Positions 16,111 through 32,204 of a DNA stretch of 46,869 bases are shown here, piece after piece. Every line of letters begins with the position of its first letter. Position 1 is the stretch's first letter. The notes under the pieces were generated by a model, which saw only the letters and a list, made by a program, of their open reading frames with translations, was not told the DNA's origin and did no database searches. Position numbers and translations under genes: made by a program. This stretch comes from Candidatus Bathyarchaeia archaeon (GTDB lineage: Archaea > Thermoproteota > Bathyarchaeia > 40CM-2-53-6 > DTGE01), in the NCBI GenBank assembly GCA_038852285.1, contig JAWCKG010000010.1:1-46869 (forward strand). The letters are read 5' to 3'.

Positions 16111-18435
16111 TTAAACCAGTTCTCTTTGAGCCGAGTAGGCTTGGCCTAGAGAGAGGCCTCCGTCACCGCATGGAACACTCCTACAGGAGATGAAGTTGAA
16201 CCCTGCGCGCTCTACTCGGCGCTTAATGGCCGTGTAAATGATCTCATTGTAGGCTACGCCTCCCGTGAAACCAACGGTGTTCACATCCAGTCTTTCAGCC
16301 TCTCTCAGGGCGTAGTCCGCTAGAGCCACTCCAACAGTGGTTAAAGCCGAGTACGCTAAATCCTTCAGCTCAAAGGCCTGAAGGTTTCTGAATAGCTCCT
16401 TTACGATGTCCCTCGTCACTATCACATCGCCTTCTATGGAGTAGGGTAGTTCTATTTCCGGTTTTCCACCATAAGCCGCTGCCTCCAGCTTCATAGCTGG
16501 CTCTCCTTCATAGGTTCTATGATAACATACGCCGAGAAGTGATGAGATGGCGTCCAGCAACCTACCGCAGCTGGATGTTCTCAACCCATTTCCCTTTCTC
16601 GCCAACTTTAACACCAACTCCGCCTCCACGCGCCCCCTCGGCAGTTTGCTCGAGTTTTCTAAAAACCATTGTTCAAAGCCTTCTTCTTCAAAGAGTATGG
16701 CGGCGAGCATCCTTAGAGGATGCTTGGCGGCCTGGTCTCCGCCTATTAACGGGTATTCCTGCATATGCCCTATCCTTTCATACCCCTCTTCGTCGGAGTA
16801 AACTATTTCTCCCCCCCAAGCGTTTCCATCCAAACCATACCCATATCCGTCGCATACGATGGCTATTAACTTCTCTACTGAATGTTCAGCCATCAAAGTT
16901 GAAGCGTGGGCGTAGTGGTGTTGTATCCTGTAAAGCGGTACTCCAAGCCTCTCTGAAAGCTTCATCCCAAGTTTCGTGGTGTTGAAGGTTGGGTGTAGGT
17001 CGCAGGCCATAGCGTCTACATGGCATCGTGTAATCCTGATAAGGTGGTTGATGGAGGCCTCCAAAAACCTTTCCGTTTCGATCGTTTCAACGTCTCCGAT
17101 GTGCTGGGTGAGGAATGCCTTATTCCCAGTGATGAGGCACGCGGTATTATTGAGCTCTCCCCCTATGGCTAAAACGGTTCTTTTGAACTCTCCTTCTACG
17201 AGTATGGGGAGGGGCGTATAGCCTCTGCTTCTCCTAAGGTAAGTGACCTCTCCCCCTACCAGTTTAAGCACGGAGTCGTCGCATCTGTTTACGATTCGCC
17301 TATTGTGGGTGAGGAAGTAATCGCAAACATCCCCTAGCTTTTCGTAGGCTTCTTCTTCGCTTGTGATGATGGGTTGGTTGGGAGGATTCGCGCTGGTCAT
17401 TATGATGGCGGGGTCATCGACCTCGTCGAACAGCATTACATGCAGCGCAGTATAAGGTAGCATGACGCCGATATGTTTAAGCCCAGGAGCCACAAGCCGA
17501 GAAATGGGGCTGTCCTCCCTTAGCTTGAGGAGGAGGATGGGCTTCACGGGTGAAGTTAAGATCTCCTTTTCGGCCTCGGTGAGGTATGCGAACTTCTTAA
17601 CCGACTTGAGGTCTTTAGCCATCACCGCGAATGGCTTCTGCGACCGATGCTTGGCCTCTCTTAACTTCAATATGGGTTTGGGTTTCATGGTCGAGGCGGC
17701 GATATGGTAGCCTCCGTTTCCCTTAACGGCGACGATGAATCCTTCCTGAATTAGTTTTCCAGCCTCCTCTATAGGCCTTTTCGCCTCGACTATCATTCCA
17801 TCGACGTCCGTAAGTTTAATTGTGGGGCCGCATCGTTGGCAGGCGATTGTTTGCGCGTGAAACCTCCTGTCAAGGGGGTCGCCGTACTCTTCTCGACATT
17901 CCTCACATATCGTAAATTCCTTCATCGACGTATTTTCACGGTCGTATGGTAATCCTTCGATAATCGTGAACCTAGGTCCGCATTCAGTGCAGGTAATGAA
18001 GAAATAACAGTATCTTCTATTCTCGACGTTTCTTAACTCGGTGACGCATTTGTCACATACGGCGATGTCGGCTGGAACGATGGATCCAATGGAAAGAGCC
18101 GCTTCATCACTCTTCAGGATGCTGAATCTCGGGAGAAGGGTATCATGAATGGGTTTAACGTCTATCCTTTCGATGCGAGCTAGTGGAGGGTGCTCCACCT
18201 TTATTCTCCTTATCATCTCTTGGATTAAATGCTCCTGACCTGTTAACGCTATCTCCACAACGGCGTCCCCTCTGTTCCTGACATAGCCCCTTAGCCCCAG
18301 CTTCACCGCGTTCCTGTAGATGAACGGTCTAAACCCTACTCCTTGGACCACTCCATGCACCGTAACGCCTACAGTGATCTCCAAAACGGGCTCCCTCGTC
18401 TCCACGGCGAGTCTTCGATGATATCGCGGCTTCAA
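16111..18435 (-). CDS. hypF: Carbamoyltransferase HypF
   Basis: Makes the thiocarboxamide precursor of hydrogenase cyanide ligands from carbamoyl phosphate. Domains in order: acylphosphatase (VHGVVQGVGFRPF, about residues 28-40), a double zinc finger with CDKC, CTEC, CEEC and CQRC, a YrdC-like domain (about 205-400) and a Kae1-like domain with the HHYAHAS metal site and GFTGGVAYNE near the end. Length of 774 is normal. The TTG start at 18435 is uncertain: a TATA-like TTAAAAATA lies only about ten bases before it, so a GTG at 18405 could be the real start. Confidence 0.94.
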   Translation of the reverse strand: MKPRYHRRLAVETREPVLEITVGVTVHGVVQGVGFRPFIYRNAVKLGLRGYVRNRGDAVVEIALTGQEHLIQEMIRRIKVEHPPLARIERIDVKPIHDTLLPRFSILKSDEAALSIGSIVPADIAVCDKCVTELRNVENRRYCYFFITCTECGPRFTIIEGLPYDRENTSMKEFTICEECREEYGDPLDRRFHAQTIACQRCGPTIKLTDVDGMIVEAKRPIEEAGKLIQEGFIVAVKGNGGYHIAASTMKPKPILKLREAKHRSQKPFAVMAKDLKSVKKFAYLTEAEKEILTSPVKPILLLKLREDSPISRLVAPGLKHIGVMLPYTALHVMLFDEVDDPAIIMTSANPPNQPIITSEEEAYEKLGDVCDYFLTHNRRIVNRCDDSVLKLVGGEVTYLRRSRGYTPLPILVEGEFKRTVLAIGGELNNTACLITGNKAFLTQHIGDVETIETERFLEASINHLIRITRCHVDAMACDLHPTFNTTKLGMKLSERLGVPLYRIQHHYAHASTLMAEHSVEKLIAIVCDGYGYGLDGNAWGGEIVYSDEEGYERIGHMQEYPLIGGDQAAKHPLRMLAAILFEEEGFEQWFLENSSKLPRGRVEAELVLKLARKGNGLRTSSCGRLLDAISSLLGVCYHRTYEGEPAMKLEAAAYGGKPEIELPYSIEGDVIVTRDIVKELFRNLQAFELKDLAYSALTTVGVALADYALREAERLDVNTVGFTGGVAYNEIIYTAIKRRVERAGFNFISCRSVPCGDGGLSLGQAYSAQRELV

Positions 18436-18492
18436 GATATTTTTAACATAGTTAAGTTTTTCGAACCGTTAACTCTAATACCATCGGCGTTT

Positions 18493-19287
18493 ATGAAGGA
18501 GGAATCAGGGATAAAGTTGCCTGAATCCATACCACAACTATACGTTTCAGCGTCCATTCTACCGGAGGCATGGGAGAAGAGCCTCATCGCGTTAAAATCC
18601 GATGGAATCTCATCAAGAAAAGAATCCTACACCGACCCTAAAGGCGTAGATCACATTTTGGAGGCCTCTATGACGATGGTGGTGAAGACCCCGGCTCGAG
18701 AGCCCATGCTACATAGGGGGTGCGAAGGCCTATTCATGCTGGGGCAGTACGTAGAAGAAGTGTTGGAGGGCGTGAAAGACTCCTACATCGGCGAATATTG
18801 GGATTACACTTATCATCAAAGACTTTTCAAATACGAGTCACCTGAAGGCCAAGCGGTGAATCAGATCCAATACCTAGCGAAGAAGCTTACGGAATGCTCT
18901 TTCACGAACAGGGCTCAAGCCACCACATGGATGCCTTGGAGGGACCAATTCGCAAAAGGACCTCCCTGCCTCCAAAGAATATGGTGTAAGGTGGTGTCAG
19001 ACGAATATTTGGAAATGCATACGAGTTGGCGGAGCAGGGATGCTTACAACGCGGCTTTTATGAACATGTACGCTCTCGTCCAGTTGCAGAAAACCATAGC
19101 CAACCAAATCGGAGTAAAAGTAGGTCAATACGTGGACTACTCAGACAGCTACCACGTATACCAACGTAATCTAAACCAATTGGACAAGTTTCTAGAGACC
19201 GTGAGAAAAAATAGGGAGATGGGGATTTCACCTTGGGCCCCCAGCAACCTCCTTAAAAAATTTCAGAGAAATGATTCAACGAAATGA
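18493..19287 (+). CDS. thyA: Archaeal-type thymidylate synthase
   Basis: Methylates dUMP (or hydroxymethylates a pyrimidine nucleotide) in thymidylate synthesis. Signatures are the catalytic Cys in GPPCLQRIW (C159), RSRDAYNAAFMNMYAL corresponding to the family's RS-D...N block, and DYSDSYHVYQR, the dUMP-binding Y-x-S-H-Y region. From ATG 18493 the protein has 264 residues. Earlier in-frame ATGs at 18418 and 18343 would overlap the divergent hypF start, so I chose 18493, although no clear ribosome binding site precedes it. The folate-type donor in an organism with methanopterin is an open point. Confidence 0.85.
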   Translation: MKEESGIKLPESIPQLYVSASILPEAWEKSLIALKSDGISSRKESYTDPKGVDHILEASMTMVVKTPAREPMLHRGCEGLFMLGQYVEEVLEGVKDSYIGEYWDYTYHQRLFKYESPEGQAVNQIQYLAKKLTECSFTNRAQATTWMPWRDQFAKGPPCLQRIWCKVVSDEYLEMHTSWRSRDAYNAAFMNMYALVQLQKTIANQIGVKVGQYVDYSDSYHVYQRNLNQLDKFLETVRKNREMGISPWAPSNLLKKFQRNDSTK

Positions 19288-19523
19288 AGAGAACTGCCCG
19301 TCCCATCGACCCACTACAGAAATCCCTGAAAAACCGAACTTATTCATGCTGTTCGAATTGTCAAATTAAAAGGCAACATATGGTCAATAATATTAAATGA
19401 GTAATGAAAGAGGCCGATTACTGCATGAGGCCCTCTTAGGATATTGCCTGCGTGTAGAAAAGAAGATTTTCGAAATTTCTATTCAAAACGTTCACGCGGA
19501 GGTTTTTATTAATTAACGCCGAT

Positions 19524-19535
19524 AATTATTTAAAA
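19524..19535 (+). promoter_or_regulatory. TATA-type promoter of the acetyl-CoA synthase/CODH locus
   Basis: AATTATTTAAAA stands about 40 bases before the TTG start at 19571, with an upstream A/T-rich track. The whole 19288-19570 spacer (283 bases) shows no gene and probably holds regulation for the Cdh locus. Confidence 0.45.
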
Positions 19536-19570
19536 CCGTAGGAGTATGGTTAGTTTAGGTCCGTGAAAAA

Positions 19571-21667
19571 TTGACCTATAACTTTTTGGAGGCTTTGCTT
19601 CAAGGGACTAGGAGATTGGCAGCAGAAGCCGAGCGAATGACGGATGAGCTTTCAGCAAGCTACGGTCTAGAGATCTCAGTTTCATACCCGGGCACCATAT
19701 ATAACCTACCCGTCGTTTACGGGCTTACAGGCAGGAAAATAAACACATTAAAGGATGTTAGAAACGAGTTATTCTTGGTGAAGTCTTCTTTATCTAAACC
19801 CATCGATGATCAAAACAGCCGGGAGCTGGGGCAAATCGCTTTAACATGCCTAGAAATCGTGGAAGCGTTAAACCATGTTGGAAATAAACCGCTGGAGAAG
19901 CCCTGTGTAGGGTTCATACCAGACGTGGTTTTCAGAGAGCTCAGCCTAGGGTTAGCAGACGGAACGATTCCCGGCATCGTAGGACTTGCGGGCGAATCCT
20001 CGGAAAACGAGAAGCTGAAGAAGCTGCTGCTCACCATTAAAGAAAGGAGCCTGCTCTGTCTCCTCATGGGTCCAGTTATTCGCCAGGCCCAAGGGCTCGG
20101 CTTAGAGCTAGGTTTGAACAGTAAATTGATCCCAGTCGAATATCGCCCAACAGCCGTCGCGCACTTCATGAATCTCTTGATCAGGGCGCCTCTGATGTTC
20201 GGGGGAATCACGCCGGGAATGAAGGATGAAATCTTAGAATACATCAAGGAGAGGGTACCGGCCTTTATCCTATATCTGGGAAAAGCCGGCGAATCGGAGT
20301 TAGCGGCGGTTAACGGCATCTCCTCCCTAAACGTTCCAGTGATAACCGATCAGAGTCAACTCTCCACGCTGGAAAACGTTCATTACCAAACCGAGCATTC
20401 GGCTATGGTTGAGAAAGGGTGCGAGTTAAAGGGAATTAAACTCAGGCCAGGAGTTAAACCTGAAATCCCGGTGGACTATGGACCAATGTATGAAGGTGAA
20501 AAAATCAGGAGGGAAGACATGCACATCGAGTTTGGAGGAAGCTCCGCTGTCGCCTTTGAAATCGTGAAAATAGTGAAGCCTAATGAAGTCGTTGATGGGG
20601 CTGTAAACATCCAGGGCCCAGACCTGGAAGACCTGAAGGAAGGATCGTCGGCTCCACTGGCCATTATTGTTAAACTGGCTGGGGCTGGCCTTGAAGAAGA
20701 GCTTGAGCCAGTCTTGGAACGGAGAATCCACCAGTTCATGAATCAATGTCAAGGCTTGATGCATCTAGGGCAAAGAAGCGATGTGTGGATAAGGATCAGC
20801 AAGGAGGCCGTTAAAAATGGTTTAAGATTAAAACATATAGGGAGCCTCCTACACATGATGTTTCACTCAACCTTCCCTCAGCTGGTAGAGAAGGTGGAAG
20901 TGGAGCTTCTTACCGACCAAGAGCTCGTGATGAAAAGGCATGCGGAAGCTGAGTCCACGTATGCTGAGAGGGATGAAAGGTTAAGGGCTTTGAAAGAGGA
21001 GGAGGTGGACTCTTTTTACGGTTGTACGCTCTGCCAGTCCTTCGCCCCCACCCACGTATGTGTCATCACACCTGAAAGGGTGTCGTTATGCGGCTCAACC
21101 AGTTGGCTTGACGCAAGAATCTCCCATAAGCTGGATCCTACAGGGCCAAACTTTAAAGTGTCAAAAGGCCAATGCTTGGACCCGGTCAAGGGAGAATGGA
21201 GCGGAGTTAACGAAACGATAAAGCAAAAATCCAGGGGGGCTGTGAAAAGGGTCTTCCTGCACAGCATATTCGGCTATACACATACGTCGTGCGGATGCTT
21301 TCAAGCGATTGCGTTCTACATCCCGGAAGTGGATGGTATAGGCATAGTGCACCGTGGGTTTAAGGATCCTGCGATAAACGGAATGCCATTTACTACCATG
21401 GCTGGGTTCTGTGGAGGAGGCAGACAGATTGAAGGATTTCTAGGAATAGGGTTAAACTACGTTAAGTCAGATAAATTCCTCAAAGCAGATGGAGGAGTGG
21501 GAAGAGTTGTTTGGATGCCACTAGACCTCAAGTTGAGGCTTAAAGAATCCATCCCCAAAGACCTCTTTGAGAAAATCGCCACAGAGCATGACGTTAAAAC
21601 TTTAAACGATTTAAAATCATTCTTAAAATCCGTCGACCATCCTGTAACTAGAAGATGGCGACATTAA
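19571..21667 (+). CDS. acsB: Bacterial-type acetyl-CoA synthase AcsB (long form with CODH-docking domain)
   Basis: Catalyses acetyl-CoA formation from CO, a corrinoid methyl group and CoA at the Ni-Ni-[4Fe-4S] A-cluster. At 698 residues it has the N-terminal domain of bacterial AcsB (about 1-310) absent from archaeal CdhC: SYPGTIYNLPVV, a GFIPD...DGTIPG segment and LMFGGITPG with AFILYLGK. The A-cluster ligands are complete: C485, C488, C497 and C507 for the cubane, C574 and C576 (CGC) for the distal nickel, with spacings identical to Moorella AcsB. The archaeal C-terminal tail is missing. An in-frame stop at 19556 makes TTG 19571 the first start. The cdhA gene follows after a 109-base gap. 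Confidence 0.93.
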   Translation: MTYNFLEALLQGTRRLAAEAERMTDELSASYGLEISVSYPGTIYNLPVVYGLTGRKINTLKDVRNELFLVKSSLSKPIDDQNSRELGQIALTCLEIVEALNHVGNKPLEKPCVGFIPDVVFRELSLGLADGTIPGIVGLAGESSENEKLKKLLLTIKERSLLCLLMGPVIRQAQGLGLELGLNSKLIPVEYRPTAVAHFMNLLIRAPLMFGGITPGMKDEILEYIKERVPAFILYLGKAGESELAAVNGISSLNVPVITDQSQLSTLENVHYQTEHSAMVEKGCELKGIKLRPGVKPEIPVDYGPMYEGEKIRREDMHIEFGGSSAVAFEIVKIVKPNEVVDGAVNIQGPDLEDLKEGSSAPLAIIVKLAGAGLEEELEPVLERRIHQFMNQCQGLMHLGQRSDVWIRISKEAVKNGLRLKHIGSLLHMMFHSTFPQLVEKVEVELLTDQELVMKRHAEAESTYAERDERLRALKEEEVDSFYGCTLCQSFAPTHVCVITPERVSLCGSTSWLDARISHKLDPTGPNFKVSKGQCLDPVKGEWSGVNETIKQKSRGAVKRVFLHSIFGYTHTSCGCFQAIAFYIPEVDGIGIVHRGFKDPAINGMPFTTMAGFCGGGRQIEGFLGIGLNYVKSDKFLKADGGVGRVVWMPLDLKLRLKESIPKDLFEKIATEHDVKTLNDLKSFLKSVDHPVTRRWRH
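20999..21073 (+). repeat. 75-base segment shared with cdhC (A-cluster coding)
   Basis: This stretch and 25221-25295 differ at only three of 75 positions, all in third codon positions (TGC/TGT, CAC/CAT, TGT/TGC). It encodes the EEVDSFYG...HVCVITP block around the cubane cysteines. Outside it the two genes are clearly diverged. Confidence 0.8.
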
Positions 21668-21776
21668 TCGATTAACGGAATGCCGAGAGGATAGATGGAA
21701 AATAATTTAAGAATGTTTAATGTAAGTTCAATTTTTTGAAGGTTTTGAAGATTGGATTAAATGCGGGTTGTATTGT

Positions 21777-24122
21777 ATGGTAAGCAAACATGTAAAAGTG
21801 AAGGTGGACGAGTTAAAGGCCGGCTCCGCTGTCTTAAAAAACTTGGAAATTTCCTTAGGAAGGATCCTGGAAGAATATTGGGAGGAGCCTGTGGGTCCAA
21901 CTCCTCAACCAGAAATGACGGATCTGAGAGAATGGGATAAAAAGCTACTAGAGAAATACAGACCATTGTACATGCCTTTCTGCGACGTGTGCTGCCTATG
22001 CACCATGGGAAAATGTGACCTCACGAAAAATAAGAGGGGCGCGTGCGGTCTAGATATGTCCGCTCAGCAATCCCGAATCGTACTGCTGGCATGTTGCATA
22101 GGCGCCGCCACACACACCGCCCATGCCAGGCACCTTCTTGAACACTTGTTGGATAGATATGGGAGAAGACATGTACTCGACGTAGGAGGCGTTAACATCG
22201 AGGTTGAGGCGCCGATAACGAGACTGGTTTACGGTATAAGGCCGAGGACCCTAGGAGACTTGGAGGATGTTCTAGATTACGTGGAAAAGGAGATCACAGC
22301 TCTGATTTCAGCCACCCATACAGGTCAGGAAGGCAACAACATGGACTTCGAATCTAAGGTCTTCCATGCTGGGATGATAGACCACCTAGCTATGGAGGTG
22401 GCGGATATTGCTCAAATCTCAGCCTTTAACTTTCCGAAGGCGGATCCTGAACCCCGTTTCGCGGAGCTTGGATTCGGATCCGTTGACGCGTCGAAACCAG
22501 TCATCCTTGTGATAGGGCATAATGTTCCTCCCGCAATTGAGATCACACGATATTTAAAGGAAAACGGCCTTGAAGGCAAAGTGGAGTTATGCGGTTTATG
22601 TTGCACAGCCCACGATGCGTCCAGGCATACTCACAACGCTAAGATTGTAGGTCCTCTCTCATGGCAGTTGAGGTTCATTAGAAGCGGCGTACCGGACGTG
22701 ATCGTTGTGGACGAGCAGTGTATAAGAGCTGACACCTTGATCGAAGCCGGCAAAGTGAAGACACCGGTTATCGCGACAAACGGGAAGAACTGTCAAGGCC
22801 TACCTGATCGAACCATGGATGACCCTGAGGAAGTAGCTAGGACGCTGATCGAGGGAGGAGTAGGCGCATTAATTCTGGATCCTGTAAAGGTTGGCGAGGT
22901 AGCGGTGAAGACGGCGTTGGGCTTAGCGCCCAGAAGGGAGCGGTTTAAGGTCATGCCTGATGTCGAGGAGGTGGTGAGGGAAGCCAAGAAGTGCCGTCAA
23001 TGCAATGAGTGTATGCGGGCGTGTCCAAACAACCTGAACATACCGAAGGCGATGGTTGAAGCGGCGGCTGGAAAGCTTGAAGGCCTCGCCGGGCTATTAG
23101 ACTATTGTATCGGATGCGCTAGATGCGACAGCGCATGCCCAGAGCGCATATCGATCCACACCTATATGGCTAAGGCCTCTGAAAAGGCCTTGAAGGAGGA
23201 GAGGTTTAAAATCAGGGTTGGCAGGGGCGCGATCCAGGATGTTGAGATTAGAAACGTAGGCAGCCCCATCGTTCTCGGGGAAATCCCAGGTGTGGTCGCC
23301 TTCGTTGGATGCTCAAACTACGCTGAGGGAGGCAGGGAGGTGGCGGAGATGGCTGAGGAATTCGCGAAAAGAAAATACATCGTGGTGGCGTCTGGATGCG
23401 CCGCGATGTCGATGGCGATGACCCGCGACGAGGAGGGGAAGACGATATATGAAAGATATCCCGGGGACTTCGACGCTGGAGGCGTGGTGAACGTTGGCTC
23501 CTGCGTTTCAAACGCGCATATAGCCGGCGCCGCCATCAAGATCGCCAGCATATTCGCGAAAAGGAAGCTGAGGGCCAACTATGAGGAGATAGCCGACTAC
23601 ATCCACAACCGAGTTGGAGCCGTCGGCGTAGCATGGGGGGCCATGTCCCAGAAGGCGGCTGCGATCGCGAGTGGATTCTGGAGGCTGGGCATACCGGTCA
23701 TAGTTGGACCACATGGGTTCAAGTATAGGCGGATGTTGCTGGGTGATAAGGATTTGAAGGGTCACTGGGAGGTTTACGACGCGAGAACGGGAAAAAAAGT
23801 GTATGCTGGTCCAACTCCTGAACACCTCTTCTACGCAGCTGAAAGCAAGGAGGAAGTTCTACCCCTGATCGCCAAGCTATGCATGAGGCCTAACGACACG
23901 ACAAAGGGAAGAGCAATCAAATTAACCCACTACATTGACTTGTATAAAAGGACCTACGGCCGAATCCCAGAGGACATTCACTTATTCGTCAGAACTGAGG
24001 CGGACATACCCATCACCATGAAGGATGAGATAAAATCCTTTCTAGAGGAGAAAGGGTGGGTGGAAACCGAGATACCGGACCCCACGCTCCTTCCCAGGTT
24101 GATTAGGAGGAGGGTTGAGTAA
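21777..24122 (+). CDS. cdhA: CO dehydrogenase alpha subunit (CdhA)
   Basis: Nickel CO dehydrogenase of the archaeal CODH/ACS complex, interconverting CO2 and CO. The N-terminal cluster-binding block is FCDVCCLCTMGKC...GACG (about residues 63-86). Two ferredoxin motifs, CRQCNECMRACP (from C406) and CIGCARCDSACP (from C444), carry the extra [4Fe-4S] clusters of the archaeal alpha subunit. C-cluster blocks include THTGQEGNNMD, CGLCCTAHDASR, VVDEQCIRAD, SGCAAMSMAM and VGSCVSNAHI. Length of 781 is normal. ATG 21777 is chosen; a TTG nine bases upstream is also possible. It overlaps cdhB as TAATG. Confidence 0.96.
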   Translation: MVSKHVKVKVDELKAGSAVLKNLEISLGRILEEYWEEPVGPTPQPEMTDLREWDKKLLEKYRPLYMPFCDVCCLCTMGKCDLTKNKRGACGLDMSAQQSRIVLLACCIGAATHTAHARHLLEHLLDRYGRRHVLDVGGVNIEVEAPITRLVYGIRPRTLGDLEDVLDYVEKEITALISATHTGQEGNNMDFESKVFHAGMIDHLAMEVADIAQISAFNFPKADPEPRFAELGFGSVDASKPVILVIGHNVPPAIEITRYLKENGLEGKVELCGLCCTAHDASRHTHNAKIVGPLSWQLRFIRSGVPDVIVVDEQCIRADTLIEAGKVKTPVIATNGKNCQGLPDRTMDDPEEVARTLIEGGVGALILDPVKVGEVAVKTALGLAPRRERFKVMPDVEEVVREAKKCRQCNECMRACPNNLNIPKAMVEAAAGKLEGLAGLLDYCIGCARCDSACPERISIHTYMAKASEKALKEERFKIRVGRGAIQDVEIRNVGSPIVLGEIPGVVAFVGCSNYAEGGREVAEMAEEFAKRKYIVVASGCAAMSMAMTRDEEGKTIYERYPGDFDAGGVVNVGSCVSNAHIAGAAIKIASIFAKRKLRANYEEIADYIHNRVGAVGVAWGAMSQKAAAIASGFWRLGIPVIVGPHGFKYRRMLLGDKDLKGHWEVYDARTGKKVYAGPTPEHLFYAAESKEEVLPLIAKLCMRPNDTTKGRAIKLTHYIDLYKRTYGRIPEDIHLFVRTEADIPITMKDEIKSFLEEKGWVETEIPDPTLLPRLIRRRVE

Positions 24123-24661
24123 TGGCGTTGGCTGAGTCATGGCAGAAGGCTGAGGTTCCAGGCCCACTTAAAGCCATGCTCATCCCCAATCCTGAAGTCG
24201 CCGCTTCATTGATCTCCAGGTCAAGAAACCCCGTGATTGTTTCAGGCTCGGAGACGCCGAAGCTGGAGATTAACGGAAAAAGATTGATAAAGTACGTGGA
24301 AATGTTGTCCGAAAGGTTTTCAGCCCCGATCGTCGCGACCTCAAACACTGTTAGGGCGTTTGATGAAGATAGATGGCGCAATGTTTACTCCCTAAGCCTC
24401 GCAGAAGCTACGGCGAAGCTGTCAAACCCGGACTGGAGTGTTGAAGGGAAAAACCCGCCACACGACACAGCTTTGTTCATCGGCTTCAAATACTACACGT
24501 TATGGCTGGCCCTTTCAAATCTCAAACACTACGCGGAGCATCTGAAAACGGTTTCCTTGGAGAAATATTATCAGCCCCACGCCGCGTGGTCACTTCCGAA
24601 TTTAACCGATGAACGATGGATGGAAAACTTGGAAAAAATAACTCAAAAAAAGGAGGGTTAA
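24122..24661 (+). CDS. cdhB: CO dehydrogenase epsilon subunit (CdhB)
   Basis: The small partner of CdhA in the alpha2-epsilon2 CODH component, probably involved in electron transfer with flavin. The 179-residue protein shows the family start (WQKAEVPGP...AAASLI-like segment, here EVAASLISRSRNPVIVSG), a VATSNTV strand and an ALFIGFKYYT strand of a nucleotide-binding fold. The ATG overlaps the cdhA stop by one base, and cdhC starts four bases after its end, so the genes are translationally linked. Confidence 0.9.
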   Translation: MALAESWQKAEVPGPLKAMLIPNPEVAASLISRSRNPVIVSGSETPKLEINGKRLIKYVEMLSERFSAPIVATSNTVRAFDEDRWRNVYSLSLAEATAKLSNPDWSVEGKNPPHDTALFIGFKYYTLWLALSNLKHYAEHLKTVSLEKYYQPHAAWSLPNLTDERWMENLEKITQKKEG

Positions 24662-24665
24662 CGCT

Positions 24666-26075
24666 ATGTCGATGTTTAAAGATATGCCTGTCGACGTAGG
24701 CGTCATCTACGAAGGGGAGAGGATTAGGAAACCGGACATGCAGGTAGAGCTGGGAGGCCCAAAAGTTGACCATAAGTTTGAGCTAGTCAGGGTTAAAAAG
24801 CTGGAGGAAGTTAAAGACGGAGAGGTGCAAGTCATCGGCCCAGACTTAAACGAGCTGGAGGAAGGCGCCAGCTACCCCATCGGAATATACATAGAGGTAG
24901 CTGGGGAAAACCTTGAGGAAGACTTGGAGGGAATCATCGAGCGTAGAATTCATGAATACTGCAATTTCATCGAAGGATTTATGCACCTTAATCAACGATA
25001 CGACATATGGATGAGGCTGAGCAAAAAATCCTTCAAGAAAGGTTTAACCTCCTTCAAGCAGATCGGCAAGATCCTCGAACGACTTTATAAAAGCGAGCTC
25101 CCCATTGTGCAGAAAATACAGAGTACCTTCATAACGGATCCGGAGAAGGTTAGGGAGATGTGGGTCACCGCCAATGAGATCTACGAGAAAAGGGACTCTA
25201 GGGCGAGGGGGTTAAAAGACGAGGAGGTGGACTCTTTTTACGGTTGTACGCTCTGTCAGTCCTTCGCCCCCACCCATGTATGCGTCATCACACCTCAAAG
25301 ATACGCTAACTGCGGGGCCATCAGCTGGTTTGACGGAAGAGCCGCCTCCAGGGTTGACCCGAAGGGTCCAATATTCAAGATTGAAATAGGCGAGGTTTTG
25401 GACCCGGTGAAAGGCGAGTACTCAGGCGCCAACGACGCGGTGAAAAAGAAGTCCCTGGGCGAGATCCAGAGGGTCTGGCTTTACACGGCCTTCGGATACC
25501 CCCACACATCCTGCGGATGCTTCGAGGCAGCCGCCTTCTACATTCCAGAGGTCGATGGCCTAGGCATCGTCCACAGAGACTTTAAAGACGTAACCATCAA
25601 CGGTCTCCCCTTCTCCACAATCGCAGACTCCACGGCCGGAGGCAGGCAGGTAGATGGATTCCACGGGCTGTCCATCGAGTACATGAGGTCGCCGAAGTTT
25701 CTCATCGCCGACGGGGGGTGGAATCGAATCGTCTGGATGCCCAAAGAAGTGAAGGAGAGGGTGGGGGGCTTCATCCCAAAAGAATTACAAGATAAGATAC
25801 CAACCGAAGAAGATGTGAAAACCATAGAGGAGCTGAAAGCATACCTACAGGAAAAGCAGCATCCAGTGGTAGAGAGATGGAAGGAGATCCCAAAAGAGGT
25901 GACGGTTGAAGCGCCAGAGGCGGGAGGTCTTCCGGAGGAAGCCATAACGCTGACCCCGCTTGAGGGCCAAACCATCCCGCTAACCGTGGGAGGATTCAAA
26001 ATCGTTCTGAAGGACGCCAAGATCACGGCTAAGAGGGTAATCATAAAGAAAACTGGAGGTAAAAAAGCAGGTTGA
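24666..26075 (+). CDS. cdhC: Archaeal acetyl-CoA synthase beta subunit (CdhC, short form)
   Basis: The second A-cluster protein of the locus, 469 residues, the typical archaeal length without the AcsB N-terminal domain. It has C194, C197, C206, C216 and the CGC pair C283/C285, with the same spacing as the long form. The last 60 residues form the archaeal C-terminal extension (ITLTPLEGQTIPL and GGFKIVLKDAKIT), ending in a basic GGKKAG tail. ATG 24666 has GGAGGG eight bases upstream. The stop overlaps the cdhD start (TTGA). It forms the core of the archaeal cdhABCDE order. Confidence 0.96.
   Translation: MSMFKDMPVDVGVIYEGERIRKPDMQVELGGPKVDHKFELVRVKKLEEVKDGEVQVIGPDLNELEEGASYPIGIYIEVAGENLEEDLEGIIERRIHEYCNFIEGFMHLNQRYDIWMRLSKKSFKKGLTSFKQIGKILERLYKSELPIVQKIQSTFITDPEKVREMWVTANEIYEKRDSRARGLKDEEVDSFYGCTLCQSFAPTHVCVITPQRYANCGAISWFDGRAASRVDPKGPIFKIEIGEVLDPVKGEYSGANDAVKKKSLGEIQRVWLYTAFGYPHTSCGCFEAAAFYIPEVDGLGIVHRDFKDVTINGLPFSTIADSTAGGRQVDGFHGLSIEYMRSPKFLIADGGWNRIVWMPKEVKERVGGFIPKELQDKIPTEEDVKTIEELKAYLQEKQHPVVERWKEIPKEVTVEAPEAGGLPEEAITLTPLEGQTIPLTVGGFKIVLKDAKITAKRVIIKKTGGKKAG
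25221..25295 (+). repeat. 75-base segment shared with acsB (A-cluster coding)
   Basis: Counterpart of 20999-21073; 72 of 75 bases are identical and the three changes are silent. See the gene conversion finding. Confidence 0.8.
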
Positions 26076-27283
26076 GGGAGGAATCGAAAGAGAAAAATCC
26101 CCTAGAAGCCCTCGGACCCCGCATCTTAGAGCTTCTCTCAGACCTGGGGGAGCTGGAGCTTGAAGATGTCGAAATGGAGATAGGGGAGCTGGAGCTTGCC
26201 GTTCAACAGGCCCCCGTAACCGCTCTCCCAGCGGTTAAACCACCAACGGGGTTAAAGCCAAAACCTGAAACATTGTTGTTAGAGGCGTTTAAGCCACCTG
26301 TCATGGAGTATCCAGGCAAGATCGTCGAGGTGACCATAGGGGCCACCAAGTCCGAGGGAGGATCAAGGTTTAACTCCGTGACGATTGGAGGCGAAACCTC
26401 CCCTCCCTTCTACCTGTTTGAAACTCCACCACCTCATAGGCCAGCTGTGTCCATAGATGTCTTCGACATGAAGATTCACCTCGCTAGCGCGGTGAGGATG
26501 CATGTGGAAGACGTTATCGAGGATCCGGGTGAATGGGCTAAGCGGGCTGCGGAGAAGTGGGGAGCCGACGTCATAAACCTACACTTGATAAGCGTTGACC
26601 CATTGCTTAAAAATACAGCTCCAAGGGAAGCCTCTAAAACAGTGGAGGATGTTTTACAGGCTGTTAAGGTTCCATTAGCGGTAGGTGGATGCGGCGATCC
26701 TGAAAAGGACATAGCAGTGTTCAAGAGGGTTGCTGAGGACTTTAAAGGTGAACGTTTACTGTTCAACTCCGTCACCCTGGACATGAACTTGAAGGAGGCG
26801 GCGGAGTCCATCGTTTCAAACGGACACGTATTAATCGCCTTCACACCGATGGACATGGATAAGGCTAGGGAGCTGAACAGGAGGCTGTACGAATACGTGG
26901 AGAAGGATCGAATCGTGATCGACACCACCACAGCGGCCCTGGGATACGGGTTAGACTACGCCTTCACGATTATGGAGAGAACTAGGCTCGCGGGGTTGAT
27001 GGGCGACCCTGAGCTTCAACATCCCCTTTCCTCGGGTACGACCAACGCGTGGGCCGCAAGGGAGGCGTGGATGCAGATGGATCCCCAGTGGGGTCCAAGG
27101 GAGTTTCGCGGACCCTTATGGGAAACGGTGACGGCCACAGTCCTCCTACTAGCTGGGGTGGACTACTTCATGATGATGCATCCAGCGGCCGTGAAAACCT
27201 TGAAAACCCTCATAGAGGAGTTCTGCTCAGGGCTGAAGGGTCCGGATGAAAACTACCTCGACTGGCTAACATTGAAAACATAG
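26072..27283 (+). CDS. cdhD: Corrinoid iron-sulfur protein small subunit (CdhD)
   Basis: Delta subunit of the corrinoid methyl carrier that delivers the methyl group to acetyl-CoA synthase. The TIM-barrel core starts after an N-terminal acidic and Pro-rich linker (about residues 1-75). Family blocks are GGETSPPFYLFE, ADVINLHLISVDP, VPLAVGGCGDPEKD, LIAFTPMDMD, TTTAALGYGLDYAF and SGTTNAWAAREAWM. The TTG start at 26072 overlaps the cdhC stop, with GGAGGT upstream. Length of 403 is near the archaeal norm. The cdhE reading frame follows within 12 bases. Confidence 0.94.
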   Translation: MREESKEKNPLEALGPRILELLSDLGELELEDVEMEIGELELAVQQAPVTALPAVKPPTGLKPKPETLLLEAFKPPVMEYPGKIVEVTIGATKSEGGSRFNSVTIGGETSPPFYLFETPPPHRPAVSIDVFDMKIHLASAVRMHVEDVIEDPGEWAKRAAEKWGADVINLHLISVDPLLKNTAPREASKTVEDVLQAVKVPLAVGGCGDPEKDIAVFKRVAEDFKGERLLFNSVTLDMNLKEAAESIVSNGHVLIAFTPMDMDKARELNRRLYEYVEKDRIVIDTTTAALGYGLDYAFTIMERTRLAGLMGDPELQHPLSSGTTNAWAAREAWMQMDPQWGPREFRGPLWETVTATVLLLAGVDYFMMMHPAAVKTLKTLIEEFCSGLKGPDENYLDWLTLKT

Positions 27284-27289
27284 GAGGGG
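27283..27289 (+). promoter_or_regulatory. Ribosome binding site that points to an ACG start for cdhE
   Basis: GGAGGGG directly after the cdhD stop, six bases before the ACG at 27296. There is no ATG, GTG, TTG or CTG in the cdhE frame between the in-frame TAG at 27281 and the conserved cysteine motif. Confidence 0.6.
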
Positions 27290-27295
27290 AGTTAT

Positions 27296-28699
27296 ACGCC
27301 TAAAACAATCAGCCCAACCGAGATCTACAAGCATCTACCGCGCACGAATTGTAAGGAATGCGGCGAAGACAGCTGTATGGCATTCGCCACAAAGCTCGCC
27401 AACTGGGAGGCAAGCTTGGATAAATGTCCTCCCCTTCAGAAACCTGAATATAGGAATCGCCTTGGAACCCTTAACGAGATGCTGAAACCCCCTGTGCGAG
27501 AGGTTTCCTTAAAGTCGAAGACAAGAACCGTGAAAATTGGGGGGAAACTGGTCATGTACAGGCATGAGCTCACCTACTTCAACCCCACAGCCATCGCCAT
27601 AGATGTTCACGACGAGATGGATGATCAAATCCTCACCAGCCGGGTGAACGCGACCCAGGGGTTCAGCTACGAGTACATCGGGCAGAGGTTAAAGCTGGAT
27701 TTAATCGCCGTCCGCTCCACTTCCAACGACCCTAAAACCTTCGAGTTGACCGTTAAAAAGATAGTCGCCCAAACAGAGCTACCGCTGATCTTATGCAGCG
27801 AAAACCCAGACGTCTTAGAGGCGGGCATCGTCGCGACGGGCGGTGGAAAACCCCTCTTATACGCGGCGTCGAAACAGAACTGGAAGCAGATGGCGGAATT
27901 GGCGTTGATGTACGATTGCCCTTTAACGGTGACGTCTCCATTCGACTTGGAAGGCTTGAAAAGCCTCGTGAAGACGTTAAAGGAGTCAGGTGTTAGAGAA
28001 CTGGTCCTTGACCCAGGGGTGTCTTGGAAAACGCTTCCAGATACTGTCAACAACTTTACCATGATTAGGAGAGCGGCATGCAAGTTTGATGACGAGTTAA
28101 TGGGCCTGCCCATTCTAGGCGTACCAGCTCAAGTGTGGGTGGAGGAAGATGTGAAACCTGAGGTCTTGGCTTGGAGGGAGGTATGTCTCTCCTCGATGCT
28201 CATCACCAGATACGCTGACGCGTTGATCATGCACACCACGGAGGGCTGGGCCCTCCTACCCCTCGTCGTTTTAAGGCAAAACATGTACACGGATCCTAGA
28301 AAGCCCGTGGCAGTGGAGCCTGGTTTAAAGGTGTTCGGACAACCGAATGAGGCCTCACCGGTGTTGTTCACCACGAACTTCGCGTTAACCTACTATACAG
28401 TGGCCTCGGACATAGAGTCCGGTAAAGTAGACTGCTACCTTGTGGTGGTCGATACTGAAGGCCTATCAGTGGAGAGCGCCGTGGCGGGGAGGAAGCTGAC
28501 CGCTGACAAGGTGGCGGACTCCCTGAAGGAAACTGACGTGGAGAAGAAAGTAAAACACAAGACGTTGATAATACCCGGTCGAGCCGCTCGGATAAGCGGT
28601 GAGCTTGAAGAGCTCTCAGGATGGTCTGTGCTGGTTGGTCCAATGGATTCCTCGGGAATCCCAAAGTTCGTCCAGGAAAAGTGGGCTAACCGAGCCTAG
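27296..28699 (+). CDS. cdhE: Corrinoid iron-sulfur protein large subunit (CdhE), apparent ACG start
   Basis: Gamma subunit, carrying a [4Fe-4S] cluster, a TIM barrel and a C-terminal corrinoid-binding domain. Starting at ACG 27296 the protein reads PKTISPTEIYKHLPRTN and then the cluster motif C19-x2-C22-x4-C27-x16-C44, the usual CdhE N-terminus. The first canonical start, ATG 27377, lies inside this motif and would delete three cysteines. The corrinoid end is recognisable as SPVLFTTNFALTYYTVASDIE and a SGWSVLVGPMDSSGIP segment. Length is 467 residues. ACG initiation, or an ATG-to-ACG change or read error, are the options. The gene ends two bases from the opposite-strand cdhE2. Confidence 0.9.
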   Translation, partial: TPKTISPTEIYKHLPRTNCKECGEDSCMAFATKLANWEASLDKCPPLQKPEYRNRLGTLNEMLKPPVREVSLKSKTRTVKIGGKLVMYRHELTYFNPTAIAIDVHDEMDDQILTSRVNATQGFSYEYIGQRLKLDLIAVRSTSNDPKTFELTVKKIVAQTELPLILCSENPDVLEAGIVATGGGKPLLYAASKQNWKQMAELALMYDCPLTVTSPFDLEGLKSLVKTLKESGVRELVLDPGVSWKTLPDTVNNFTMIRRAACKFDDELMGLPILGVPAQVWVEEDVKPEVLAWREVCLSSMLITRYADALIMHTTEGWALLPLVVLRQNMYTDPRKPVAVEPGLKVFGQPNEASPVLFTTNFALTYYTVASDIESGKVDCYLVVVDTEGLSVESAVAGRKLTADKVADSLKETDVEKKVKHKTLIIPGRAARISGELEELSGWSVLVGPMDSSGIPKFVQEKWANRA

Positions 28700-28712
28700 C
28701 CTATGCCTCGGT
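28689..28712. terminator. Possible bidirectional transcript-end hairpin between cdhE and cdhE2
   Basis: ACCGAG (28689-28694) and CTCGGT (28707-28712) form an inverted repeat with a 12-base loop, and further imperfect pairing (GGG with CCC) flanks it. It spans both stop codons of the tail-to-tail genes. Archaeal termination usually uses T-tracts, and none is present here, so the function is uncertain. Confidence 0.3.
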
Positions 28713-30068
28713 AACCCCTAGTTTACGCAGGTAGGTAGGAAGCTCAGCTGAGTCTTCAGGGCCGATTAAAACCCTCCAACCAGAACCCTCCTCCACCTCT
28801 CCTTTCATCTTGGAAAAACCTCGGGGCAAGACGACCATCCGCTCCGAAACCTTGCCTTCAACCTCCTTCAACAATTTGGCGATTGATTCGCCGTCAACCA
28901 TCCCCCCGGCCACAGCGTTCTCCACCGACATGCCTTGGGAATCCACTACGAGCAGATAACAGCTCGCCTTCCCCGCTTGAAGGTCGCTGAAGACTAAGTA
29001 GTAGGTTAAAGCATAGTTGGTTGTAAGCACCACAGGTGAGTGAGAACCCGGTTTTCCCACCACGTATAGGCCAGGAGTAACCTTAGCGGGCTCCCGAGGG
29101 TTAGAGTAGTATCCCTGCCTTAACGCGTAAAGGGGCGCCATCGCTAACCAGTCCATCCAGCTTAACACAACAGCGTCTGCGTACCTTAAAACGCAAGCTG
29201 CGCCCGTCAGAGACTCCATCCAAACCGGGTCAAGGATGCTGCTTGAAAAGCCCTCGTGCTGGGCTGGGAATGCTAGAATGGGATGTTGAAAACCCGACAC
29301 CCCATGCTCTATGGCGGCGATCCTTATCTGAATCAAAGTGGAAACTAAACTTTTTAAACCGTTTCTGGGCGTCGGGTTTAAAACTACCTGGCATCCCTTG
29401 GATGAAGCCTTCTCAGAAAGACGATACAACTCACTAACGCTCCGTGAGGAAACGGCTATGGGACATTCTGCTCCACGGGAAACCTCAATATACTGCTCCA
29501 AAACGCCTCCGTGAGCGCCGCAAAGCACAGGCTTCAACTCAGCCAACGTATCTAAAGCCTCGTCTCCTATAGGGGAGGCGCAGGAAATCATCAGGGGTTT
29601 ACCCGCGTATTCGTCGACTTGTCGAAGCAGTTTGAGGGTTCGTTCATCTAGTTTCGAACACTTTAAGTATATGAAGTCTACTCCATAGGTTTCCCAGCCC
29701 ACCGTAAGCTTAAAATCCCCTATCCTCCGGATCTGCGAGAGCGTTTCGTCATGGTGGTTTTCAACTTCCACCTCTACGCCTAGGGCGGTGGGATGGTAAA
29801 ACCTGTGAATATGTCTGTGAAGCGATTTCTCACCTCCTATGCATAGGATCCTCCCCCTTCCGAAACATGCTTTTCTCACCGGCGGTGAGATGAGTTTGAG
29901 TAGTTCATCCTTATTCTTCCCGGTGAGGTGTGGGCATTCATCCAACTCTGCGGCGTCTTCCATGAGCTTTAAGGCGAACGCCATGCATGTGGGTACGTTG
30001 CACTCACCGCAGTTTCGACCTGGAAGGAGCCTGTACACGGTTATGGGTGAAGTTTTTTCCCCAGACAT
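28701..30068 (-). CDS. Second corrinoid iron-sulfur protein large subunit (CdhE2)
   Basis: A diverged paralogue of CdhE, 455 residues. It keeps the cluster motif (C20-x2-C23-x4-C28-x16-C45), the barrel, and the corrinoid-side blocks SPVVLTTNYALTYYLVFSDLQ and SGWRVLIGPEDSAELP, so it looks functional. Inserted or changed segments include CFGRGRILCIGGEKSLHRHIH and several extra cysteines. ATG 30068 with AAAGGTGA upstream is preferred over GTG 30077, whose GTGA would overlap the cdhD2 stop. Symbol left open; it pairs with cdhD2 and is transcribed against the main cdh operon. Confidence 0.85.
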   Translation of the reverse strand: MSGEKTSPITVYRLLPGRNCGECNVPTCMAFALKLMEDAAELDECPHLTGKNKDELLKLISPPVRKACFGRGRILCIGGEKSLHRHIHRFYHPTALGVEVEVENHHDETLSQIRRIGDFKLTVGWETYGVDFIYLKCSKLDERTLKLLRQVDEYAGKPLMISCASPIGDEALDTLAELKPVLCGAHGGVLEQYIEVSRGAECPIAVSSRSVSELYRLSEKASSKGCQVVLNPTPRNGLKSLVSTLIQIRIAAIEHGVSGFQHPILAFPAQHEGFSSSILDPVWMESLTGAACVLRYADAVVLSWMDWLAMAPLYALRQGYYSNPREPAKVTPGLYVVGKPGSHSPVVLTTNYALTYYLVFSDLQAGKASCYLLVVDSQGMSVENAVAGGMVDGESIAKLLKEVEGKVSERMVVLPRGFSKMKGEVEEGSGWRVLIGPEDSAELPTYLRKLGVTEA

Positions 30069-30073
30069 CGAGT

Positions 30074-31066
30074 TCACCTTTTGAAGGCTTCTCGCACCGC
30101 TTCCAAGGCTTTGGGGTGCATGATGGCTGTTAAATCAGACCCAGCTAGGGTTAAGATGGTCGCGGTGTGGGCCTCCCATAAGGCTCCCCTCACACGGGAG
30201 GGTGGTAGCTGAGGGTCTTCCATCCAAGCCTCTCGGGCTTTCCAGGAAGCGGGAGCAGCCCGCAGGGCTGCGATGGGGAATCGGGTTAGCTCATCGCCCT
30301 TCAACCCATCTAATCGAAGCTGCTCCAAGATGGATATGGAGTATTCTACGCCCAGCCCCAGGGAGGCCGTGGTGGGATCCATAAGGAGGCTATCCTCAGG
30401 TAGCCCAGCTTCGAGGAGCTTGGAGTTTAAGGTTCTCTGCGTTGTGGGGTCGCAGTCGGTTTCAGCCACCACCGCGTGGCCGTTTTGCAAAGCCGCCTTC
30501 ACTATGAGCCTATAGTTGTTCGTTAATGAGGCTGAGGCCAAGGCCCCCCTCCCATTCATCTTCACGGATAGGCGGTGGATTACCTGGCTGACCAGGTTTG
30601 AGTTTCCATCGACATCTAAGATTAGGGGTATGTCGCAGCTCTCTGAGACTTGCTCCACAACCCGTCCGGCCTGGGTTACCCACTCCTCCCAGCCTCCCTC
30701 CTTCACATCCAGCCTGAGGGAAATGGCGTCTGGATGAACCTCATCCATCTGCTTTAAAGCCCATTTGATCGGATCCTTGAGTTGATCCCCAAACTCGCGG
30801 ACTATGGGCTCAGGGTAGCGGTCGACCGTTTCAGCCACGCACAACGCCAACGCTGGCATGAAGGGCTGAGTTGAAAAGAGGGGAAGGGACCTAGCCCCTC
30901 CTAGGCTTAACTCTCCGCCTCCCTTAGCCTTTAACCTCACTTCGACGATAGGATGCTCGAACACCTGTTCGAAAACCTTGAGTTTAGGCCTTAAATACTC
31001 GTAGATGTCCTCCATAATACCTGCCCAAATGGTTGGAACGCCATCGAACCCTAAATACCCCTCCAC
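30074..31066 (-). CDS. Second corrinoid iron-sulfur protein small subunit (CdhD2)
   Basis: A diverged and shorter paralogue of CdhD, 330 versus 403 residues, without the N-terminal linker. Barrel blocks correspond: HPDAISLRLDV, DIPLILDVDGN, NGHAVVAETDCDPT, LMDPTTASLGLGVEYSI and APASWKAREAWM. The segment matching SPPFYLFE in CdhD is replaced by RSLPLFSTQPFM. The likely start is GTG 31066; an ATG at residue 18 is an alternative. With CdhE2 it forms a two-gene unit divergent from the CooC gene. Confidence 0.82.
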   Translation of the reverse strand: MEGYLGFDGVPTIWAGIMEDIYEYLRPKLKVFEQVFEHPIVEVRLKAKGGGELSLGGARSLPLFSTQPFMPALALCVAETVDRYPEPIVREFGDQLKDPIKWALKQMDEVHPDAISLRLDVKEGGWEEWVTQAGRVVEQVSESCDIPLILDVDGNSNLVSQVIHRLSVKMNGRGALASASLTNNYRLIVKAALQNGHAVVAETDCDPTTQRTLNSKLLEAGLPEDSLLMDPTTASLGLGVEYSISILEQLRLDGLKGDELTRFPIAALRAAPASWKAREAWMEDPQLPPSRVRGALWEAHTATILTLAGSDLTAIMHPKALEAVREAFKR

Positions 31067-31118
31067 TTTAAGATAAGTTTATCCACGGGCGAGTGTTGAA
31101 AATTAAGGAGGGATATTC
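31067..31118. promoter_or_regulatory. Divergent promoter region between cdhD2 and cooC
   Basis: Only 52 bases separate the starts of cdhD2 (minus) and cooC (plus), with A/T-rich tracts facing both ways (TTTAAGATAAG near 31073 and AAAATTAAGG near 31100) and AAGGAGGGA just before the cooC TTG. The two promoters must overlap, so the second corrinoid protein and the nickel ATPase are probably expressed together. Confidence 0.4.
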
Positions 31119-31898
31119 TTGTCTAATTCCAAGGTTATCTCGGTTTCAGGTAAAGGCGGGGTTGGAAAGACCACGGTGGTGGCCTTGATGCTTAGGAACT
31201 TCTTGGCTCAGGGTGGGCGATCCATTTTGGTAGTTGACGCTGATCCGTCAACAAACCTCCCCGACATTTTAGGCGTTCCTGTGGAGAAGACCGTTGGGAT
31301 GGTGACGGATGAGTTGAAAAGGGAGATCGCTAAGGGCTCCGTTTCTTCTACGATTTCGAAGGAAAGTGTCTTGGAGGCTAGGGTTTTCGAAGTGTTGGCT
31401 GAAACCCCTGAGTTCGACTTATTGGCCATGGGGCGGTCTGAAGGTGAAGGATGCTATTGCATGGTTAACCACATGCTTACCAAAGTGGTTGACGCCCTCT
31501 CAAAGAATTATGATTTAACCCTAATGGACATGGAAGCTGGGTTGGAGCATTTAAGTCGAAGAACGGACAGGGATGTTGACATCATGTTGATCGTCACCGA
31601 TCAGTCGAAGATGGGCCTCCAAACAGCGAAAAGGATCAAGGACCTGGCCAAGGAGGTTCACATAGAGTTTAAGGAGATGTACTTGATTGGAAACAGGTTT
31701 GAGGAAACCCTAACACCCTCCTTTCAGAGGGCCGCCGAAGCTCAGGGGCTCACCTTCCTCGGAGCTATACCGCCGGATCCCGATGTGTTAAAGTTTAGCG
31801 TGGAGGGAGTTTCGCTGCTAAGGCTGCCGCTCGAGAACCCCGCGGTAAAGAAGACAGGTGAATTGATGGGGAAAATGGGCCTACTGGACGCGTTGTAA
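31119..31898 (+). CDS. cooC: CooC-type nickel-insertion ATPase
   Basis: A 259-residue MinD/SIMIBI-class ATPase that matures nickel sites of CODH and/or acetyl-CoA synthase. The P-loop is GKGGVGKTT (residues 9-17) and VVDADPSTNL follows. The nickel-binding CxC motif is at C112 and C114, the same positions as in Rhodospirillum CooC. VTDQSKMGLQTAKRI and LIGNRF are further family blocks. TTG start with AAGGAGGGA five bases upstream. Located between the two corrinoid protein sets and the C1 branch, it could serve one or both of the A-clusters as well as the C-cluster. Confidence 0.9.
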   Translation: MSNSKVISVSGKGGVGKTTVVALMLRNFLAQGGRSILVVDADPSTNLPDILGVPVEKTVGMVTDELKREIAKGSVSSTISKESVLEARVFEVLAETPEFDLLAMGRSEGEGCYCMVNHMLTKVVDALSKNYDLTLMDMEAGLEHLSRRTDRDVDIMLIVTDQSKMGLQTAKRIKDLAKEVHIEFKEMYLIGNRFEETLTPSFQRAAEAQGLTFLGAIPPDPDVLKFSVEGVSLLRLPLENPAVKKTGELMGKMGLLDAL

Positions 31899-31910
31899 TC
31901 TTATGGTGAG

Positions 31911-32204
31911 CTATGTTCTTTCAATTCTGCTTTTAGCCATGGTTCCGGATGAAAGCTCGTAGGACAGCTCCTCCCAAGAGGTTGGGTGGAAGCTTAGCAT
32001 CGACTCTGTCTTCTTCACATAGGGCAGCCTCCTGATCCTCATGATCGTTTTGTCGATGGCTTCAGAATCCCCCTCCAGCACCACGACTAGGTCGAAGGCC
32101 CCATGTACAACATCCGCATAGACTATGCCTTCCACCGTGGCTAGATGAGCGAGAATGTCAGACTCCCGGCCTGGTTGAATGTCCACCAAAATATACGCTC
32201 TCAT
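31911..32204 (-). CDS. Stand-alone Lrp/AsnC ligand-binding (RAM) domain protein
   Basis: A 97-residue protein consisting only of the alpha-beta sandwich of Lrp regulators (AYILVDIQPG, a GIVYADVVHGAFDLVVVLEG block, RRLPYVKKTESML). There is no helix-turn-helix. Such orphans can bind amino acids or modulate full-length Lrp proteins. It is convergent with cooC and follows mch by about 60 bases on the same strand, so it may be the last gene of the fwd-mch transcript. Its ligand is unknown. Confidence 0.82.
   Translation of the reverse strand: MRAYILVDIQPGRESDILAHLATVEGIVYADVVHGAFDLVVVLEGDSEAIDKTIMRIRRLPYVKKTESMLSFHPTSWEELSYELSSGTMAKSRIERT

Follow-up and report, generated by a model that had tools for sequence, protein, structure and literature searches.

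How can two ACS genes whose silent sites have become saturated with change still share an almost unaltered stretch of DNA over their active site? This question is raised by the CODH/ACS operon of Candidatus Bathyarchaeia archaeon, which we analyzed in a stretch of 46,869 nucleotides (hereinafter the window) from the genome designated G000; all other G numbers denote comparison genomes.

Two types of ACS in one operon

The operon, which lies on the plus strand, includes an acsB-like gene (19571..21667) recognized by its Pfam and NCBIfam matches and its PDB homologs. Its 698 aa product combines a CODH-binding N-terminal domain with a full ACS domain (CODH_A_N, CdhC and ACS_CODH_B_C, i.e., Pfam PF18537, PF03598 and PF19436), the domain set of the bacterial-type AcsB (CODH/ACS alpha). 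It scores 824 bits against PRK09529 (cut-off 809) and 784 bits, slightly under the cut-off of 800, against CODH_ACS_al_bet, while PDB 7zkj, 1ru3 and 1oao are homologous to it across almost its full length. Downstream are cdhA (CODH alpha; 21768..24122; TIGR00314, 1157.6 bits), which separates the two ACS genes, cdhB (CODH epsilon; 24122..24661; TIGR00315, 109 bits, above the cut-off), cdhC, coding for the 469 aa archaeal ACS beta subunit (24666..26075; TIGR00316, 666.6 bits), and, from NCBIfam and Pfam matches, cdhD (CFeSP delta; 26072..27283) and cdhE (CFeSP gamma; 27377..28699). Across its ACS domain the acsB product matches both the bacterial CODH/ACS alpha subunit AcsB (PDB 1oao, 7zkj) and the archaeal CdhC (PDB 9c0s); unlike the systems from which these come, the operon holds both types around a single archaeal cdhA–cdhB pair.

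Alignments that include solved ACS structures indicate that the A-cluster ligands, C-x2-C-x8-C-x9-C and C-G-C, are all retained in both proteins. We take the ligand roles of these cysteines, including that of the fourth cubane cysteine, to be those of established ACS biochemistry. In the codon alignment, the fourth cubane cysteine of acsB is encoded at 21089..21091, and the Cys-Gly-Cys codons, which specify the distal Ni ligand, lie at 21290..21298 in acsB and 25512..25520 in cdhC.

A near-identical tract over the A-cluster loop

The segment in question occupies 20999..21073 in acsB and 25221..25295 in cdhC, 4222 bp downstream in direct orientation, and encodes EEVDSFYGCTLCQSFAPTHVCVITP in both. 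As the original prediction had it, 72 of the 75 bases match and the three differences (acsB/cdhC: 21034 C/T, 21055 C/T and 21061 T/C) are all silent third-position changes. The tract contains the codons of three of the four cubane ligands (21023, 21032 and 21059 in acsB), with the fourth and the C-G-C motif falling outside it. The strong divergence that had been claimed for the adjoining protein sequence (ERVSLCGSTSW versus QRYANCGAISW) is likewise borne out, the left flank being equally divergent, and the remaining shared ACS domain has a DNA identity of about 56% with saturated silent sites. Divergence along the alignment is accordingly far from uniform, with a pS of 0.16 in the tract as compared to 0.80 outside, where dS is saturated. 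At conserved degenerate residues, 22 of 25 codons are identical in the tract versus 68 of 184 outside (Fisher p = 1.3e-6); given the codon usage of the two genes themselves, 9.5 of the 25 would be expected (p = 1.3e-7). The longest exact matches within the tract measure 35, 20 and 12 nt; elsewhere in the alignment of the two genes none exceeds 11 nt. The tract is the sole direct repeat of at least 24 nt within 18000–32000 of the window, and no third copy was found in the G000 genome.

Homogenization of the tract in related genomes

Among 257 genomes of the class, 174 possess an ACS gene, mostly a single cdhC, and the long acsB is rare. It is present in seven genomes. In four of these it precedes cdhC by about 4.2 kb, cdhA–cdhB lie between them and the gene order is conserved: G000, its nearest relative G027 from the same family, and G025 and G026 from one genus of the same order, three genera in total. 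This tandem sample thus comprises four draft genomes, probably metagenome-assembled, two of them from one genus. In each of the three additional genomes the tract has been homogenized, and each to its own sequence. Within genomes, acsB and cdhC agree at 72/75 (G000), 75/75 (G027), 73/75 (G026) and 70/75 (G025) bases of the tract and at 22/25, 25/25, 24/24 and 22/24 codons, respectively, against silent identities outside it of 0.37, 0.47, 0.68 and 0.66. G025 and G026 are AT-rich, the last two values are high, and against this background the silent-identity permutation for G025 alone is not significant (p about 0.1). Within-genome dS between the two genes is 0–0.18 in the tract and 0.84 to saturated outside, indicating that it is the silent sites, and not the protein alone, that have been homogenized. 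Moreover, paralogs within a genome (70–75 of 75 bases) are more alike than orthologs between genomes (61–62 for G000/G027 and 65–69 for G025/G026). The two paralogs even have a lineage-specific residue in common, at the variable position of VD[S/A/C]FYGC, which reads VDSF in G000, VDAF in G027 and VDCF in G025 and G026.

Other arrangements of duplicate ACS genes offer points of comparison. G058 has two cdhC copies 456 kb apart, which are uniformly alike along their length and give no information on islands. In G031, acsB and cdhC lie on separate contigs and the tract region matches at 55/75 bases, with no comparable homogenization. In G270 and G277, from another genus of the phylum, acsB lies 7.2 kb from cdhC on the same strand, its product lacks C-G-C (TSTLSFEC and TSTFSFEC) and its cubane loop is altered; the tract regions match at 52/75 and 57/75 bases, and 8/15 and 13/15 codons, respectively, are identical as compared to a proportion of 0.56–0.58 outside, the value for G277 being a weak signal (p = 0.024). 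Since these copies, about 7 kb apart, show no comparable homogenization, nearness alone seems insufficient and a conserved site seems to be required, although with two genomes of one genus this is a contrast rather than a proof. Given this natural contrast between the tandem loci and the unhomogenized genes lacking the nickel ligands, the parts played by function and by residual homology in concerted evolution can be tested directly. The ligand-lacking acsB-like protein is itself kept in two species (G270 L082:11605-13674 and G277 L083:4369-6465) in a CODH/ACS neighborhood and may be a non-catalytic paralog of ACS with a CODH-binding or structural role. For G034, G223 and G558 (L048, L049 and L080), likewise of this phylum, the ACS-domain search yielded only bacterial-type acsB and no archaeal cdhC.

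Conflicting histories of the tract and the rest of the ACS domain

The ACS domain minus the tract (440 columns; 23 cdhC and 11 acsB sequences) yields a tree in which all cdhC are split from all acsB with support of 100/99. The outgroup was acsB from Nitrospirota, the only matches of a contig scan with the acsB protein, at up to 37% identity. The four tandem acsB group together (90/91), apart from all cdhC, and under midpoint rooting they fall between the classical acsB and cdhC. In the tract tree, which conflicts with this, acsB and cdhC pair by genome. For the tract, AU tests reject an acsB clade (p = 0.009) and a clade of the four tandem acsB (p = 0.003), while for the rest of the domain every within-genome pairing is rejected (p ≤ 2.4e-5). 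Site patterns tell the same story: sites splitting by genome versus by gene number 12:0 in the tract and 32:133 in the rest for G000/G027 (p = 1.6e-8), and 5:1 and 14:219 for G025/G026 (p = 1.1e-5). On account of the tree conflict, the AU tests and the site patterns, conversion has occurred separately in at least three lineages (G000, G027 and the genus of G025 and G026), and probably in four. As the AU test for the tract of G025 and G026 alone is not significant (p = 0.171 on 75 columns), the events in this genus may in part go back to a single older one common to both genomes, with later ones added, their separateness resting on few sites.

Competing explanations for the tract

Few parts of ACS are as conserved as the encoded peptide, and the tract spans only about 75 bp, which would fit a constraint on the codons or nucleotides themselves, such as RNA structure, translation pausing or a regulatory site, fixing the same codons in both genes. 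Such a constraint would hold across genomes, and here the comparison refutes it. The silent sites of the tract are free to diverge between genomes about as they do elsewhere (pS of 0.64–0.70 between the G000 and G027 orthologs), the codon identity of acsB from one genome with cdhC from another (7/24 to 18/24) does not significantly exceed the background, and the codon set differs by lineage, with single-copy cdhC genes using yet other codons. We therefore regard codon constraint as scarcely credible. We give practically no credence to a recent partial duplication or gene fusion, by which the tandem acsB would have arisen newly from cdhC with the tract alone still undiverged. The intermediate position of the tandem acsB in the midpoint-rooted tree is in its favor, but their grouping apart from all cdhC outside the tract and the conserved gene order speak against it, and a single duplication could not leave a different near-identical tract in each genome. 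It is also rejected by the AU test on the rest of the gene, which disallows pairing of the paralogs within genomes.

Two further explanations invoke something other than recombination between the two genes. An assembly artifact, in which reads from two similar stretches were merged, is very improbable: the genomes are drafts and 75 bp is near the k-mer lengths of assemblers, but the same pattern recurs in four separate genomes, 3 to 5 differences are kept in G000 and G025, and the flanks on both sides retain their gene type, such that merging would need to have replaced the central part of a copy both of whose flanks were assembled through. Copying by another machine, either a diversity-generating retroelement or a homing intein or intron that sat in the active site, acted by co-conversion and has since been lost, has next to no chance of being correct. 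Inteins do favor conserved active-site codons and co-conversion of flanks is typical of them, but repeated gain and loss would be needed in every genome, and no reverse transcriptase, intein or intron was recognized at the tandem loci, whether inside the genes or in the intervals separating them. In the case of a diversity-generating retroelement, the differences in the tract are C/T rather than at A, and inspection by eye of the ORFs of 10000–36000 of the window recognized no reverse transcriptase.

Recurrent ectopic gene conversion as the probable origin of the tract

In our view the tract has most probably arisen by homologous recombination of a recurrent and non-reciprocal kind, namely ectopic gene conversion. 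The partners would be two ancient ACS paralogs of the same operon, which have the same orientation and are separated by about 4.2 kb. The identity island, its lineage-wise recurrence, the conflicting trees and the absence of codon constraint are all observed features of these loci. The exchange between the two copies posited in the original prediction is thereby strongly supported, and the relatives further reveal it to be recurrent.

As to how conversion might proceed, we infer the following repair mechanism. Strong purifying selection would hold the A-cluster loop (C-x2-C-x8-C) almost invariant in both proteins, leaving it as the only stretch similar enough for strand exchange between acsB and cdhC. 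A break or stalled fork in one ACS gene could then be repaired off the other, with the diverged flanks blocking the heteroduplex such that only about 75 bp would be copied. Each such event would reset silent divergence to zero and so keep the homology needed for the next, potentially making the island self-sustaining, and it may carry neutral or adaptive residues, such as the variable one of VD[S/A/C]F, into both genes. Repair with crossover would instead delete cdhA–cdhB and would presumably be purged by selection. The original replacement probably ran from cdhC to acsB, as one residue suggests: at the first loop cysteine the tandem acsB have FYGC, as do nearly all cdhC, in contrast to FYSC in the non-tandem acsB that we read (G031, G034, G223, G558 and Nitrospirota).

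We more tentatively entertain, at somewhat less than even confidence, the idea that the active site is a genetic unit of its own, a 25-codon catalytic cassette evolving jointly in two otherwise independent enzymes. This reading would combine selection for matching A-clusters with short-tract conversion, with one genus having a second cassette at Cys-Gly-Cys; if it is true, active-site innovations of one ACS would pass to the other.

Further homogenized islands

The second island surrounds the C-G-C motif (codons +91 to +112, counted from where the tract starts) in G025 and G026 only (L045 and L044). Its codon identity is 20/21 and 19/20 within genomes as compared to 10/21 and 12/20 across them (p = 1.2e-5, uncorrected for the windows examined, the island having been found by scanning). 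The same segment is not homogenized in G000 and G027 (p = 0.87). A third stretch, seen in G026 alone (L044), is an exact match of 69 nt at codons +151 to +173 on the same count. Residues of the cdhC type appear there in acsB, and an arginine of the acsB type in cdhC; this mixture of residues hints at exchange in both directions.

Relationship to known cases of concerted evolution

Gene conversion has been documented in archaea, e.g., in Haloferax volcanii (PMC11276520). The closest parallel is concerted evolution of mtrA-1 and mtrA-2 of methanogens, in which the whole MtrA domain is homogenized to 92–99.7% identity (PMC4632066). As with the ACS genes, these are two paralogs that share an operon for a complex of archaeal C1 metabolism, and a further domain is fused to one of them. 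Long-lasting conversion homogenizes their common domain within species while their gene-specific parts stay different. Unlike mtrA, the ACS pair shows this for a 75-bp active-site segment, the domain otherwise having about 50% protein identity and silent sites near or at saturation. RF1 and RF2 similarly show conversion limited to the shared catalytic part (RF domain 3, with GGQ) of anciently diverged paralogs (PMC4530459), but there it is one old event per lineage, covering about 85–100 codons and seen in protein trees (PMC4530459), whereas the ACS tract is about 25 codons long, repeatedly converted and still visible at silent sites. A survey of rare long-lasting concerted evolution in prokaryotes describes, in its main text, 26 genes, such as tuf and mtrA, with recurrent homogenization of paralogs that, as here, often belong to central metabolism and complexes (PMC6053082). 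ACS/CODH gene names are absent from that main text, and a 75-bp island would escape whole-gene trees. In the open-licence literature we came across no account of gene conversion affecting CODH/ACS, which is weak evidence of absence. Concerted evolution is a known phenomenon; what appears to be new is that an active-site island of such small size recurs between paralogs that have diverged this far, and that it does so in ACS.

ACS is among the oldest enzymes used for reconstructing early carbon metabolism, and in such lineages phylogenies that depend heavily on its best-conserved motif would cluster the genes of one genome instead of following descent. The tandem loci also suggest that a homologous patch of about 75 bp in a strongly diverged pair can sustain repeated conversion in archaea.

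A second CFeSP pair in the window

At 28701-31066 (minus) and 31119-31898 (plus), the window has a second, divergent cdhE-like/cdhD-like (CFeSP) pair, located on the opposite strand, next to a CooC-like P-loop ATPase (CbiA/MinD type). Similarly arranged ORFs are present in G027 (L043:246-3417).
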